Origin: Gemmatimonadota bacterium
Lineage (GTDB): Bacteria > Gemmatimonadota > Gemmatimonadetes > Gemmatimonadales > Gemmatimonadaceae
Length of the DNA: 64,000 nucleotides
Assembly: GCA_023249305.1 (NCBI GenBank)
Contig: JAHFCU010000010.1
Coordinates: 1 to 64,000 of the forward strand
Direction: 5' to 3'
The notes beneath the pieces are model-generated. The model had not been told where the DNA came from. It saw only the letters and a list, made by a program, of their open reading frames with translations, and did not search any database. A program made the translations under genes and the position numbers. This document shows, in pieces, positions 27,290-45,774 of this stretch. The stretch's first letter is position 1, and each line of letters opens with the position of its first letter.

Positions 27290-28568
27290 GCTCTGGGCGG
27301 TGACCAAGCGCGAGTTCCTCGAGCGCGTACGTACGAAGTGGTTCATCATCGTCACCATCTTCGGTCCGGTCTTCTTTGCGGTCATCATGGTGCTGCCGGC
27401 GTACTTGTCGGTGCGCGGCATGAAGGATGTGAAAGTCAGCGACATCCGCATCATTGACGCCACGGGCACAGGGCTTGGCGACCGGGTGGCCACGCGTCTT
27501 GGCGGCGGGCCGATGGGCGATGCGAATGTCACGCAGGTGGTGGTCGTCGCGCCCGACAAGATGGCCGCGGCAGAGTCGCTCGCCACGCACGACGTCATGA
27601 ACAAGCTGCGGCGAGGCTATCTGGTGCTTGATTCGCTGACGATCCAGCAGCAGAAGGCATCGTACGCCGGACGCAACGCGTCGTCTCTGAACGAAATTCA
27701 GATCATCGAGCAGGCGCTGCGCTCGGCCATCCTCTGCCAGCGGCTGGAGCGCGAGGGGCTTGACCCCAAACGCGTGGAGAAGCTCACGCAAGTCAGGGTC
27801 AACATGAGCGCCGAGCGCATCACCGATAAGGGACGCGGCGGGTCGGGCATCGGCAGCGCGATCTTCGGCTTCGTCATCGCCTTCCTGCTCTACATGATGA
27901 TCGTGCTCTATGGACAGAACATCCTGCGCGGCGTACTCGAGGAGAAGACGACGCGCGTGGCCGAAGTGATCGTGTCATCGGTTTCGACCGACGTATTGCT
28001 CGCCGGCAAGGTGATCGGCGTTGGTGCGGTCGGCCTCCTGCAGCAGGCGGTCTGGTTGTTGAGTGCGACAGCGTTCTACCATTTCCGCGAGCCGATCTTC
28101 GTGAAGATGGGCATGCCTGCCGCTCCGGCGATTTCGCTGCCGCAGGTCCCGCCCATGTTGATTGCGGCGCTCGTCCTCTTCTTCATTCTCGGATACGGGC
28201 TCTACGCGGCGCTGTTCGCGGCGGTCGGCGCGATGGTGTCAAGCCAGGAAGATGCCAATCAGGCCGCGCAGCCAGTAGTGATGCTGCTCGTCTTCAGCAT
28301 CATCTTCGCGCAGCCGGTGATGCTGAACCCGACGAGCCGGCTGGCCGAAATCGTGAGCTGGATTCCGTTCTCTGCGCCGGTCATCATGCCGATGCGCATG
28401 AGCGCTATTCAGATCCCGTGGTACGAGCTCGCGGCGACGCTGACGGGCGTGGCGGTCACCTGCGCGCTCTGCGTCTGGCTGTCGGCGCGCATCTACCGCG
28501 TCGGGTTGCTGATGTATGGCAAGCGGCCGAGCATGCGAGAGCTGGCGCGGTGGATTAGGCAGGCATAG
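27282..28568 (+). CDS. ABC-2 type exporter permease, NatB-like
   Basis: Membrane protein of 428 residues. One N-terminal transmembrane segment (about 18-45) is followed by a large extracytoplasmic domain to about residue 185, then five or more segments in the second half. YGQNILRGVLEEKTTRVAEVIVSS is the conserved ABC-2/NatB motif. It overlaps the ATPase gene by eight bases and forms the export channel with it. Its 3' end is followed by a long inverted 10-bp repeat element. Confidence 0.87.
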
Positions 28569-28580
28569 CTCACTGAGTAC

Positions 28581-28725
28581 GACAGAATCCAACAGAATCC
28601 GCCAGAATCCGGCAGACTGTTACAGAACGGGACGGAGGGATGCGGCGATGGCTGCCGCACCCCTCCGTCGCATTCTGTGGTACTCCGTTCTACTCTGTTG
28701 GATTCTGTTGTAATCTGTTGCACTC
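28581..28725. repeat. Inverted decamer element 1 (5+5 units around a hairpin)
   Basis: Left arm: five 10-bp units from 28581 to 28630 sharing CAGA at fixed phase (for example AACAGAATCC). Right arm, on the opposite strand, 28676-28725: five units such as AACAGAATCC and AACAGAGTAG. The centre holds a 16-bp stem with one mismatch (28631-28646 with 28654-28669) and a 7-base loop. The same design occurs at 40301-40423 and 45631-45774. Confidence 0.9.
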
Positions 28726-28730
28726 CGCGC

Positions 28731-28790
28731 CCTAGCGTGCCTTAGCGCGCCTTAGCGCGCCTTAGCGCGCGCTAGCGCGCGCTAGCGCGC
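28731..28790. repeat. GC-rich 10-bp tandem array reaching into a stop codon
   Basis: Six 10-bp units from 28731: CTTAGCGCGC-type, the last two GCTAGCGCGC. The final unit contains the stop codon (28782-28784) of the reverse-strand winged-helix gene. Units are partly self-complementary around CTAG, so the array can also fold. Confidence 0.9.
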
Positions 28791-29171
28791 CCGCGTCGCC
28801 TCAATCAGCGCTTCCATGTGCCCGAGGTAACGTTCGAGCGCACGCTTGCCAGCCGCCGTGAGGCGGAACTCGCTCTTCGGCACGCGACCGTCGAATCCCT
28901 TCTGGCACGTGAGGTAGCCGCCTTCCTCGAGCTTGCGGGCGTGCACGCTGAGATTGCCGTCGGTGAGCCGCAGCACGTCGCGGAGGTCGGTGAAGCTCAA
29001 GCGATCGTTGACGGCGAGCGCGCTGATGATGCCGAGGCGCACACGATCGTGAATGAGTTTGTCGAGCGCGGCCGGCACCGGCTCGCCGCCAAGCACGGGA
29101 GCGAGCGCTGGGGCTGGCGACGGCGGTTTGCGATCGCCGCGTCGCGCCGCGGATGAGGTTGCCTTAGCCAC
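28782..29171 (-). CDS. Winged-helix transcriptional regulator
   Basis: DNA-binding protein of 129 residues with a winged-helix domain of the HTH_34/ArsR-like type: DRVRLGIISALAVNDRLSFTDLRDVLRLTDGNLSVHARKLEEGGYL is the helix-turn-helix, followed by a wing and EFRLTAAGKRALERYL. A basic, Pro-rich tail precedes it (residues 1-28). The gene overlaps the membrane-protein gene upstream by eight bases, a common pairing in which the regulator controls its own operon. Its stop codon lies inside a 10-bp repeat array. Confidence 0.85.
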   Translation of the reverse strand: MAKATSSAARRGDRKPPSPAPALAPVLGGEPVPAALDKLIHDRVRLGIISALAVNDRLSFTDLRDVLRLTDGNLSVHARKLEEGGYLTCQKGFDGRVPKSEFRLTAAGKRALERYLGHMEALIEATRAR

Positions 29172-39385: not shown

Positions 39386-40297
39386 TTGCCGACCATTCGA
39401 TTCATCACGACCGACGTCTTCACGGGCGTCCGGTTCGGCGGCAATCAGCTCGCCGTCATTCCGGATGCCCAGGGAATTCCGGAGGAACTACTCCTCCCCA
39501 TCGCCCGCGAGTTCAACTACTCGGAGACGACGTTCGTGTATCCTCCCGAACAGCCCGGGCACACCCGACGCGTGCGTATCTTCACGCCGGGTGGCGAGGT
39601 ACCGTTCGCCGGACATCCGACGATCGGCACGGCGATCGTGCTCGCGGTTACGGGAGAGATTTCGGCGTGGGACGGCGAGGCGCGTATCATGCTCGAGGAG
39701 ACCGTCGGCCCTGTTCCGGTGGTGATCCGCGGGGTGCACGCCGGTGGGGGCTGGGCCCAGCTATCCGCCGCGAAGATGCCGGAACTCGGACCGCCGGTAC
39801 CGTCGCGCAGCATGCTGGCAAAGATGCTCGGGCTTGTCACGGACGACATCATGGCCACCTCCGAACGTCCGCAGGCTGTGTCGTGTGGCCTGCCGTTCCT
39901 GATCGTTCCGCTCACCAGCATCAAGGCGGTGAGCCACGCGCGCGTCAATCTCGAGCGGTGGGAAGAGACGCTTGCGAATGCGTGGGCCTCGATGATCTGG
40001 GTGTACGCCGCAGATCCCGAGACCGCCGAGCGGCACTATCGTGCGCGGATGTTCGCGCCGGGTATCAGCGTTCCCGAAGATCCGGCCACGGGATCGGCTG
40101 GAGTGACCTTCGCGGGCTATCTCGCGGCGCGCGCCCGCACGCGCACCGGCACGCTGGCGTGGACCATTGATCAGGGCGTCGAGATGGGACGCCCGAGTCG
40201 CCTCGAGATCGAGGCCGACAAGGCCGACGGCGCCATCACCGCGCTGCGGGTGGGCGGACAGGCGGTGCTGGTGAGCGAAGGGACGATGGGCTTCTGA
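39386..40297 (+). CDS. PhzF-family isomerase/epimerase
   Basis: Protein of 303 residues with the diaminopimelate-epimerase-like fold of PhzF. The conserved catalytic Glu is E47 in FNYSETTFVYPP; GGEVPFAGHPTIGTA and PEDPATGSAGVTFAGYL are the other hallmarks. PhzF itself isomerises DHHA in phenazine synthesis, but most family members, including those beside amino-acid genes as here, have unknown substrates. TTG start six bases after the pruA stop, so it is in one operon with pruA. Confidence 0.87.
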   Translation: MPTIRFITTDVFTGVRFGGNQLAVIPDAQGIPEELLLPIAREFNYSETTFVYPPEQPGHTRRVRIFTPGGEVPFAGHPTIGTAIVLAVTGEISAWDGEARIMLEETVGPVPVVIRGVHAGGGWAQLSAAKMPELGPPVPSRSMLAKMLGLVTDDIMATSERPQAVSCGLPFLIVPLTSIKAVSHARVNLERWEETLANAWASMIWVYAADPETAERHYRARMFAPGISVPEDPATGSAGVTFAGYLAARARTRTGTLAWTIDQGVEMGRPSRLEIEADKADGAITALRVGGQAVLVSEGTMGF

Positions 40298-40300
40298 CGA

Positions 40301-40423
40301 AGCAGAGAACAACAGAAGACACCAGAGCACAACAGAGTGAAACAGAGGGGCGCCCGAGACTGGAGCGCCCCTCGTCTGTTGTGTTCTGTTGTGCTCTGTT
40401 TCCCTCTGCCGTTCTCTGCCCCT
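40301..40423. repeat. Inverted decamer element 2 (5+5 units, convergent genes)
   Basis: Left arm 40301-40350: five 10-bp units, e.g. AGCAGAGAAC and AACAGAGTGA. Right arm 40374-40423, on the reverse strand: GGCAGAGAAC, GGCAGAGGGA, AACAGAGCAC, AACAGAACAC, AACAGACGAG. The centre has a perfect 9-bp stem (GAGGGGCGC, 40345-40353, with 40365-40373). It lies between convergent phzF-type and diguanylate cyclase genes, and the right edge reaches the cyclase stop codon. Confidence 0.92.
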
Positions 40424-41783
40424 AGGGTAGCCTCTCGATCTCGCGGGAGAGCCTGCCGACGGTGATGTCCAACTCGCGGGACGCGCGGGTGGCCGCGTCA
40501 AAGGCGCGCATGCCGGTCTTCCACAGCACGGCCTGATCGCGGCCGCTGCGCTTGGCCACGTAGAGCGCTTCGTCCGCACGCGCCGTCAGGATGCGGACCA
40601 CGTCGTCGGTCGACGCTTCGTCGGAGGCCACGCCGATGCTGATCGTGATCGACAGTTTGCCGCGCACGCTCACGAACGACCGCGCGCGGAATGCGTGGAG
40701 GATGCGGTCCGCCAGGTGCCTGGCGCCCTCTTCGTCCGTGTCGGGAGCCAGGATACTGAACTCCTCGCCGCCAAGCCGCGCCACCACGTCGCCCGCGCGT
40801 GCGGTCTCACGGATCAGCGCGCCAATCTCCTTGATCGCTTCGTCGCCGGTCAGGTGCCCAAAGTCGTCATTGATGCGTTTGAAGTGGTCCACATCGAGCG
40901 CGAGCACGGCCACGCGCCACTTGGCGCGAATGCCGCGCGAGATCTCTCGGTCGCCAAGCTGCTTGAACCCTCGGCGATTGAAACAGCCGCTCAGTGGGTC
41001 CGTGAGGATGATCGTCTCGAGGTGGCCGCGCAGTTCGTTGTATGCCCGTCCGATCTGCGTGATGTAGTCAGGGAACTTGTCGCGACTCTCATCGTATGGC
41101 TGGTCGAATTCGCCTTCGCGCGCCTTGTCGAACAAGTGCGTGAGGCGCTTCATGCGCACGCCTTGATGGCCGAGCATCCACGCGTAGGCCAATGCCCCCA
41201 GGCAGAAGAGCGCAAAGGTCCAGAGCTGTTCGGTAGGTGCGCCGAGCATCCGCGCACGTTCGGCCAGCGCAACAATGGTCGCATAACAAACCGCCACGCT
41301 GCCGAGCATGAACAACGTGGTGCGCCAGCCGAAGTACAGTTGCGTGAACTGCACCAGGAACATCGAGACGATGAGGGTGCGGTCATACTGCGCCGGTGGG
41401 GTGAGCAGGAACGCGCATACGTTGACCACCAGCGCATCTGCGGTCACCTGCGTGCGCACGAGGGCGCGAGGGACCGCTCTCGCAATGCGCGCGTGCCACC
41501 GGATGGCCGCGGTTATGACGAGATAGACCGCCGTGGCGGCTACGAACAGGAGCGACGCGTTATCCGTTCCGTACCACCGGGCACCCACCGAGACGGACGA
41601 CACCAAGTCCAGCTCGCGCAGCAACAGCGAGCCGCCTGCGATGGCGACCGCGATGCCGATCCGGTAACCACCCTGCCAGAGCAGGATCTCGGCGCGGGAT
41701 GCCGCGTCGCCGGTTTCGTGCGAGGGATCGATCACTGAGGCGGGGAGTAGGGAGGCGACTGAAGTGCCTTCATTTGACGCCAA
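40422..41783 (-). CDS. Membrane diguanylate cyclase (GGDEF)
   Basis: Protein of 453 residues. About six transmembrane segments fill residues 38-205, then a coiled linker leads to a GGDEF domain (about 258-425). The catalytic motif is GGEEF (338-342), active in this variant, and the inhibitory I-site RxxD (R329-D332) lies exactly five residues before it, so product feedback is likely. It should make cyclic di-GMP in response to a membrane signal. No EAL or HD-GYP partner is nearby. Confidence 0.92.
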   Translation of the reverse strand: MASNEGTSVASLLPASVIDPSHETGDAASRAEILLWQGGYRIGIAVAIAGGSLLLRELDLVSSVSVGARWYGTDNASLLFVAATAVYLVITAAIRWHARIARAVPRALVRTQVTADALVVNVCAFLLTPPAQYDRTLIVSMFLVQFTQLYFGWRTTLFMLGSVAVCYATIVALAERARMLGAPTEQLWTFALFCLGALAYAWMLGHQGVRMKRLTHLFDKAREGEFDQPYDESRDKFPDYITQIGRAYNELRGHLETIILTDPLSGCFNRRGFKQLGDREISRGIRAKWRVAVLALDVDHFKRINDDFGHLTGDEAIKEIGALIRETARAGDVVARLGGEEFSILAPDTDEEGARHLADRILHAFRARSFVSVRGKLSITISIGVASDEASTDDVVRILTARADEALYVAKRSGRDQAVLWKTGMRAFDAATRASRELDITVGRLSREIERLP

Positions 41784-44364: not shown

Positions 44365-45618
44365 TTACCTCGGAGCAGGCTGCGGCCGACGTGGCGGAGG
44401 CTGCCCCCTGCGCGCACGCTCGGTTACAATAGAATCGCGACGCGCCCGATCGCGTGAAGCGGTCGCATGGGCGCGGCTTCGGCGATTGGCCGCATTCTCG
44501 CGGTCGAGCACCGCGGCGTCATGCAACATCAGGAAGCCAGCCAGGGCCGGCACGAGCAGCGTGGCCACACCGCCCGGGAACCTCGACGGCTTCGACGGGT
44601 CGCCTCCGATGCGTCGAATCACCTCCGGGAACCGCTTCTGCACCCAGACCGTGAGGATGATCATCGCCACGCCGATGAGCGCCAGCAGCAAGGGGAACGC
44701 GGTCGTCACCTTGAAGACGTCAAACGCCAGCCACGCGAGGAAACCAAAGACGCCCATGAGCCCGACGATGAGTAGCACTCGGCGACGCAGGATCACCGAA
44801 GCCGTGATCACAAGCAGCGACACGGGCGCGAGATACCAGCGAAGCGACCGGTCGAACTGGAAGAGCATCATGCATCCAAACCACGTTGCCACCGCCACCG
44901 AGATCCAGAGCCAGAAACCGTAGTCTTCGTCACGCCGGCGGCGATCTACCGTGTACGCCACCGCGGCGAGCGCGCTCGCGATGATCACCCACCGCCATCC
45001 CATCACGGTACCGGGTGCGTCCGGTAAGGCCGCCCATTCCCGCAACAATCGCTCTGGCAGTGTCACGCTGACAACCGCAATCGGAGCCATGAACGGCGAG
45101 AATGCCATCTGTCGCATCGCGAAGAGCGCAGCCATGACCGCCGCCAGTTCGATGGCGAGCGGCTGGCCCTGACACACCGCGAACGGATGCGACTGCATCG
45201 CGCACACCGCGTCGAGCTCAGGCGTCCACACCCCAGTCCACCGCAGCAGCGCCCACGTGGCGATTGGTGCCATGCCCACCGCGAGCAACGTCGAGACGCC
45301 GCGCGCCGTCTCGAATCCCTCGCGCCGCAGCACCTGCGCGACGATCAGAAAGATGCAGGCGTACGCCAGCGCGAGCCCAAATACGCCCGCGTCGCCGAGC
45401 ACCTTCCAGCGATCCACCATGAACCACCCGAACGCGAACAGCACCACGAGCGCGCCAACGCCGTAGGCGATGGTGATGCCGTTGAAGGCGCGCTCCGCTT
45501 CGCGCGGCGGCCTCGTGCCCGCGTCCGCCGTGCCAGCGAGCGCGAGAAGCGCAGCGCGCTGGTCCGCAGAGATAAGTCCGCGTTCCACGCCGAGGTCGAG
45601 CAGCTCGTGTACGGTCAT
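44365..45618 (-). CDS. DUF2157-like polytopic membrane protein
   Basis: Integral membrane protein of 417 residues. The ATG at 45618 begins MTVHELLDLGVERGLISADQRAAL, an N-terminal helical domain typical of DUF2157-type proteins, followed by about ten transmembrane helices. An upstream in-frame start at 45672 would only translate the decamer repeat (MYSVVFCCTLLF) and was rejected. The C-terminal 50 residues are basic and Arg/Pro-rich. Role unknown. Divergent from the decarboxylase gene, with decamer element 3 between them. Confidence 0.75.
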   Translation of the reverse strand: MTVHELLDLGVERGLISADQRAALLALAGTADAGTRPPREAERAFNGITIAYGVGALVVLFAFGWFMVDRWKVLGDAGVFGLALAYACIFLIVAQVLRREGFETARGVSTLLAVGMAPIATWALLRWTGVWTPELDAVCAMQSHPFAVCQGQPLAIELAAVMAALFAMRQMAFSPFMAPIAVVSVTLPERLLREWAALPDAPGTVMGWRWVIIASALAAVAYTVDRRRRDEDYGFWLWISVAVATWFGCMMLFQFDRSLRWYLAPVSLLVITASVILRRRVLLIVGLMGVFGFLAWLAFDVFKVTTAFPLLLALIGVAMIILTVWVQKRFPEVIRRIGGDPSKPSRFPGGVATLLVPALAGFLMLHDAAVLDRENAANRRSRAHATASRDRARRDSIVTERARRGQPPPRRPQPAPR

Positions 45619-45630
45619 GGGGCACTCGCT

Positions 45631-45774
45631 GGGAGAGAACAACAGAGTGCAACAGAATACAACAGAGTACAACAGACATACTGCGCCTTGACGTGTTGTG
45701 CCATCCGCAGCGTGCGACCCGGCCGTCTGCTGTTGTATTCTGCTCTATTCTGTTGCTCTCCGTTGTTTTCTGGC
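45631..45774. repeat. Inverted decamer element 3 (5+5 units, divergent genes)
   Basis: Left arm 45631-45680: GGGAGAGAAC, AACAGAGTGC, AACAGAATAC, AACAGAGTAC, AACAGACATA. Right arm 45725-45774 on the reverse strand: GCCAGAAAAC, AACGGAGAGC, AACAGAATAG, AGCAGAATAC, AACAGCAGAC. The 44-bp centre lacks the strong stem of elements 1 and 2. It fills the whole space between two divergent start codons, so it must hold or overlap promoters and cannot be a terminator for either gene. Confidence 0.92.

Follow-up and report, generated by a model that had tools for sequence, protein, structure and literature searches.

Three intergenic elements in a 64,000-nt stretch of DNA (the window) carry CAGA-type 10-bp units on inverted arms, far above chance expectation, and belong to a class of arrays in which the site, the inverted layout, the purine-first order and the use of one unit type per element are conserved, and the unit sequence is not. 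The conserved feature resembles a transcript-end structure, not a particular sequence. We favor, at a probability of about one half, the reading that the elements are transcript-end, bidirectional terminator-like hairpins whose flanks have expanded into lineage-specific inverted tandem arrays. Intergenic short tandem repeats of bacteria are mostly unexplained or assumed to be neutral. These arrays obey a strand rule across unrelated units, are found chiefly at transcript ends and stay in place as their unit is rewritten; the function of intergenic short repeats, a vague old question, is now directly testable.

Three inverted arrays in the window

The first-pass annotation had described three elements with 10-bp CAGA-type units and inward-facing arms, and all three are present. 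Runs of at least three CAGA or TCTG motifs at 10-bp phase occur five times in the window, always inside the three elements, and 0 times in 60 first-order Markov simulations of it; no such runs were found in the window at phases 5-9 or 11-19. The arms are inverted, with 72%, 78% and 86% complementarity over 81, 45 and 42 nt in elements 1, 2 and 3, and folding of each element compared with shuffles gave z scores of -6.5 to -11.3 on both strands. The features are as follows.

28572..28636, + strand: element 1 left arm, purine-rich, 10-bp units CAGAATCCNN, beginning 3 nt past the ABC-2 permease stop codon (TAG, 28566-28568)
28631..28669, no strand: element 1 central 16-pair GC-rich hairpin, overlapping the innermost units (z -5.5)
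28664..28727, - strand: element 1 right arm, pyrimidine-rich on the + strand, inverted units TCTGTTG...
40303..40346, + strand: element 2 left arm, five CAGA units, beginning 5 nt past the PhzF-like stop codon (TGA, 40295-40297)
40345..40373, no strand: element 2 central GC-rich hairpin (z -4.6)
40375..40418, - strand: element 2 right arm, five inverted units, stopping 3 nt short of the GGDEF stop codon (40422-40424, - strand)
45633..45676, + strand: element 3 left arm, four CAGA units and one degenerate outer unit, adjoining the DUF2157-like start codon (45616-45618, - strand)
45677..45726, no strand: element 3 centre, between divergent genes, without a significant hairpin (z 0.2)
45727..45772, - strand: element 3 right arm, inverted units, stopping 13 nt short of the decarboxylase start codon (45786, + strand)

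Convergent genes flank element 1 (an ABC-2 permease and a winged-helix regulator) and element 2 (PhzF-like and GGDEF genes), and element 3 occupies the whole gap between a divergent pair, a DUF2157-like gene (start 45618, - strand; its score is just under the Pfam cut-off) and a pyridoxal-dependent decarboxylase gene (start 45786, + strand). Genes were called with our own simple heuristic caller based on GC3. The 16-bp hairpin that had been placed at the centre of element 1 is there. The five units per arm ascribed to all three elements hold strictly for element 2 only (5+5); element 1 has 6+7 units when CGGA and TCCG variants are counted, and element 3 has 4+4, or about 5+5 with degenerate units. 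A search of the window with Rfam at curated score gave no match, and a promoter scan showed no excess (2 found, 2.3 expected).

Two further arrays were seen in the window. At 28726-28795, a second 10-bp array with another unit, (TTAGCGCGCC)n, directly adjoins the right arm of element 1, and its - strand reads TAG or TAA once per 10 bp in the region where the winged-helix gene ends. At 1134-1195, a 7-bp array (GATGGGA) stands right behind a gene end, and the orthologous gap in a related genome, G001, has a 7-bp array too.

Distribution, strand order and position of the arrays

The arrays form a dispersed intergenic family, as the first-pass annotation had supposed. Their source genome (G000) is a 2.5 Mb draft, 79% complete, with 53 matches to a three-unit pattern and about 20 array sites beyond the window, many of them single-arm. 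Most of its arrays lie a few nucleotides past a stop codon and are followed by a GC-rich hairpin; two are downstream of tRNA-Gly genes, so translation is not required. Among the compared genomes, many of which are drafts, the 10-bp unit has matches in 9 of the 11 from the genus and in 0 of 49 from elsewhere in the family and order. The 11-bp unit (GACAACAGAGA) has matches in 7 of the 11 and, under a stricter pattern, a single match in 1 of 110 other genomes of the family. A pattern search of the source genome for the 11-bp unit gave no match; at its locus L061, one arm is 11-bp by eye and the paired element there looks mixed.

Other periods are common. In 1.18 Mb of G001 sampled without bias toward known units, non-coding tandem arrays have periods of 7 (37), 10 (19), 11 (24) and 13 (10), plus multiples. 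Within the genus, three genomes are rich in the heptamer GATGGCR. Inverted arrays in other genera have 8-bp units (G011), 9-bp units or 15-bp units, and the 9-bp unit CACRGAGNN has matches in 19 of 249 genomes and 14 of 112 genera. One pattern scan of a named-genome collection returned 13 stretches. Most are isolated or coding-like arrays from unrelated phyla, and we judged the matches coincidental with one exception, L079 (Gemmatimonadetes metagenome isolate nzgw228), which carries window element 2 and so assigns the source genome to the Gemmatimonadota.

Several side observations came from these searches. With the heptamer pattern reversed as a control, G003 gave 263 matches, which suggest that this genome has a further heptamer family, CGGTAGN. 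On contigs C3 and C4 of G001 (for example C3:197052-197184), a degenerate 13-bp family (GATTGAGGATCGG-like) makes non-coding arrays that are apparently inverted. At L062 3055-3175, a degenerate C/T-rich repeat (CTCGTCCC-like) follows a single-arm array and hairpin and reaches the next gene. At L068 5771-5861, next to a long gene, another unit, TCTGTCGTCG, is repeated perfectly at 10 bp and followed by TCTGCTGTCG; this repeat matches the four-unit pattern, yet looks unrelated to the intergenic family. Genome G004 has one PhzF-like gene copy identical to that of the source genome (G004:C58:3085-3993) and a second at 84% (G004:C10:12245-13147), which suggests cross-binned contigs, some of them apparently from the source species.

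The design first proposed for these elements, a fixed 5+5 arrangement with a 10-bp phase read as a helical-pitch signal, does not survive the wider sample. Arms carry 3-19 units (36 paired CAGA elements), orthologues of the 10-bp arrays have 11-bp units, and periods of 7, 8, 9 and 15 bp occur elsewhere. The first-pass annotation had itself tied the idea of a fixed element to constancy of unit number and phase; both vary elsewhere, and by that rule the idea fails. Protein binding had been raised in the first-pass annotation. We regard it as improbable that the phased units are DNA sites of a nucleoid or regulatory protein, with unit and period following changes in that protein. Such a protein would cover divergent element 3 and the convergent elements equally, and as a trans-acting reader it would account for a genome-wide unit change; the near-uniform unit of the source genome, where the 11-bp pattern has no match, also suits it. 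Against it, periods of 7, 8, 9, 11 and 15 bp are not in helix step, 10-, 11- and 7-bp families stand together in G001, and a DNA-binding protein gives no reason for the order of the arms among unrelated units.

That order is nearly invariant. Of 33 pairs (six genomes, periods 7-15; 21 of the pairs come from one genome), 32 begin with the purine-rich arm, 31 of them strongly so, and one pair is strongly reversed. The same order is seen in convergent, same-direction and divergent gaps alike. We considered purine loading of transcripts (Szybalski's rule) as its cause and rejected it, since same-direction and divergent gaps obey the order too. The two arms of an element belong together, as had been supposed: in G001, where the 10- and 11-bp families are both common, the arms shared unit type and period in all 20 paired elements and the families were never mixed (p = 6e-6). 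The covariation between arms that the first-pass annotation proposed to look for did not appear. With the innermost unit excluded, unit order is not mirrored between arms (p = 0.73), and the arms thus give no sign of base-pair covariation along their length. Several of our statistics were computed post hoc, on the data in which the pattern was first noticed.

The arrays crowd against genes. Stop-facing arms lie at most 20 nt from the stop codon in 42 of 56 cases, and start-facing arms at most 20 nt from the start codon in 18 of 29. Among gaps of at least 60 nt, arrays occupy 7 of 104 divergent gaps and 69 of 314 gaps with a 3' end (p = 2e-4). Convergent gaps have strong central hairpins (median z -5.1, n = 18), and those of divergent gaps are weak; in this comparison the element-3 orthologs L182 and L184 were labelled tandem by a fuzzy gene call and are really divergent. 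Single-arm arrays occur alongside paired ones, and a long stem is impossible there.

These positions also bear on Rho-dependent termination, a reading to which we give little credence. The pyrimidine-rich arm, with its regularly spaced UC dinucleotides, would serve on each strand as a rut-like loading site after a pause hairpin. Whichever way an element is transcribed, its second arm is indeed pyrimidine-rich with UC in each unit (for example UCUGUUGUUC), and it is more C-rich in the 7-, 8- and 15-bp families. However, single arms beside the upstream gene in same-direction (++) gaps are mostly purine (13 purine, 4 pyrimidine), a purine arm would be useless to that gene as a rut site, and CAGA-type arms have a G in every unit.

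Persistence of sites and turnover of units

The sites of the arrays persist in evolution. Arrays are kept in G001 at 6 of 6 gaps that have an array in the source genome, compared with 4 of 46 array-free control gaps (p = 1e-5), in a test of few sites that sampled about one third of G001. For gaps of at least 60 nt only, the counts are 5 of 5 and 2 of 15 (p = 0.0014). In five of the six kept gaps, the period is 10 bp in the source genome and 11 bp in G001.

At the gaps orthologous to the three window elements, sister genomes have inverted arrays of 11-bp GACAACAGAGA or GAGAAAACAGA units. Further units found at these gaps are CACGGAG/CACAGAGGAG, CACGAAG, CACGGAT and the GCTGTACGCC type, and in a few relatives the gap contains a plain hairpin or hardly exists. 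The inner left junction of element 3, AACAGACATACT, is common to the 10-bp version of the source genome and the 11-bp versions of G001 and G010. On this sequence comparison, a change of period in place would fit the shared junction, and the centre of element 3 that it borders may contain promoters. The unit changes could not be put in order from a quick tree of three proteins.

This turnover weighs on the idea that mobile miniature elements (REP/REPIN or MITE-like) insert into the spacers. Copies are dispersed, arms are inverted and orthologous gaps without an array exist, all as such insertion would have it. We nevertheless hold it to be very improbable: ends and centre are not constant (no constant ends were seen by eye at orthologous sites), different units stand at one site among species, and the inner junction common to the 10- and 11-bp versions fits in-place change over fresh insertion. 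The RAYT-type transposase (Y1_Tnp, PF01797) is absent from the 79%-complete source genome and from G001, and is present in one copy each in 2 of 11 genomes.

The main rival of the transcript-end reading is a neutral or selfish origin as repeats of the short tandemly repeated repetitive (STRR) type, which we consider possible but less probable. Here arrays would arise by slippage and be carried by gene conversion or template switching into tolerant spacers, gaps at 3' ends being merely the most tolerant, and hairpin-templated (snap-back) copying would make the arms alike without any function. Much of the variation described above favors it, including the free variation in unit number, the lack of order matching between arms, several unrelated unit families within one genome, some arrays in divergent gaps as well, and the complete absence of the array at the orthologous gap in some relatives. 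Neutral slippage would not be expected to set purine first across unrelated units or to keep sites despite unit replacement, and these two observations speak against pure neutrality.

The turnover also poses an evolutionary puzzle, in that unlinked arrays share one unit and period per genome, yet a sister species has others at the corresponding positions. Unlinked arrays may come to adopt one unit by gene conversion or under a trans-acting reader, and this adoption is the most interesting part of the pattern. A trans-acting reader or copier might impose one unit and period on dozens of unlinked transcript-end or boundary sites, which we think rather unlikely. If it were so, the unit would change wholesale between species (10 bp here, 11 in sisters, 7, 8, 9 and 15 elsewhere in the phylum) with the sites and the purine-first inverted layout fixed.

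Transcript ends and known systems

An enlarged bidirectional terminator, or a hairpin that protects 3' ends, would be consistent with the transcript-end position, the purine-first order on both strands and the GC-rich centres. Under the transcript-end reading, the two flanks of a bidirectional terminator-like hairpin would expand by tandem duplication into inverted arrays, so that a polymerase entering from either side would transcribe a purine-rich arm, a GC-rich hairpin and a pyrimidine-rich arm in turn. Both arms could then zip into one long stem while a weak pyrimidine-RNA/purine-DNA hybrid occupies the enzyme, favoring release or leaving a protected 3' end; the arms would act as the A- and U-tracts do in classical bidirectional terminators. 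Slippage would lengthen and shorten the arrays, and the unit could be replaced genome-wide (10 bp here, 11 bp in sisters) while site and purine-first layout stay. Termination or 3'-end protection is what we infer from sequence features, and slippage and the mode of replacement across the genome are likewise putative. Element 3, between divergent genes, would be weakly explained: it could shield the pair from outside read-through, or be an array that spread to a non-terminator site.

In support of the transcript-end reading, arms lie by gene ends, mostly at stop codons, divergent gaps are depleted of arrays, convergent-gap hairpins are strong, and the order, site persistence and shared period all hold. 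Against a terminator, a simple stem is missing at several array sites, divergent genes flank element 3 and some further arrays, single-arm copies exist and unit matching between arms is absent. There is also no clear U-tract: the T fraction in the 12 nt past the stem is 0.32-0.33 for arrays and 0.25 for other 3' ends, and a terminator scan requiring a T-rich tail called none of the three window elements.

The open-access literature yielded no description of short-unit arrays that are inverted, follow a strand rule and have their unit replaced where the site is kept. Within that literature, the inverted, purine-first form with a changing unit has no counterpart, in line with the earlier view; the arrays do have a likeness to STRR and to bidirectional terminators. 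CRISPR arrays have repeats of about 23-47 bp with unique spacers between them. We rejected a CRISPR array, as the units here are 10-11 bp and run head to tail without spacers; as had been said at the outset, CRISPR and REP/BIME units differ, and the arrays have no constant palindromic unit. REP/BIME and REPIN sequences are likewise dispersed, intergenic, inverted and hairpin-capable, and differ from the present arrays, which have no RAYT link and whose arms are short-unit arrays of variable number (PMC3116915). In Porphyromonas gingivalis, a minisatellite is located inside a MITE, again tandem repeats tied to an inverted-repeat element; the difference is that our arrays are themselves the inverted arms and that a constant terminal repeat was not seen (PMC4596501).

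Two systems come closer. The first is the dispersed, mainly intergenic short-unit tandem array with one favored unit per genome, a description shared by STRR, the TAACTGA heptamers and our arrays. STRR of cyanobacteria are such arrays, mostly intergenic; they are direct arrays without a paired inverted array, unlike the 36 paired CAGA elements found here, alongside which single arms also occur. The TAACTGA heptamers of Beggiatoaceae are intergenic direct repeats, of which a single inverted instance is reported, whereas the present arrays are inverted around a centre, purine-first and have their unit replaced at kept sites (PMC4679880).

The second is the bidirectional intrinsic terminator, which is symmetric, stands at gene 3' ends and reads as purine side, GC-rich hairpin and pyrimidine side on both strands. 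Our arrays stand past stop codons or RNA genes, with divergent element 3 as an exception, and have the GC-rich hairpin in convergent gaps and a weak one in divergent gaps. They differ in lacking a clear U-tract, in having some divergent copies and in that their role in termination is a proposed one; in place of A- and U-tracts they have long arrays of 7-15 bp units. As a class, the arrays resemble both the cyanobacterial STRR repeats and the bidirectional terminators.
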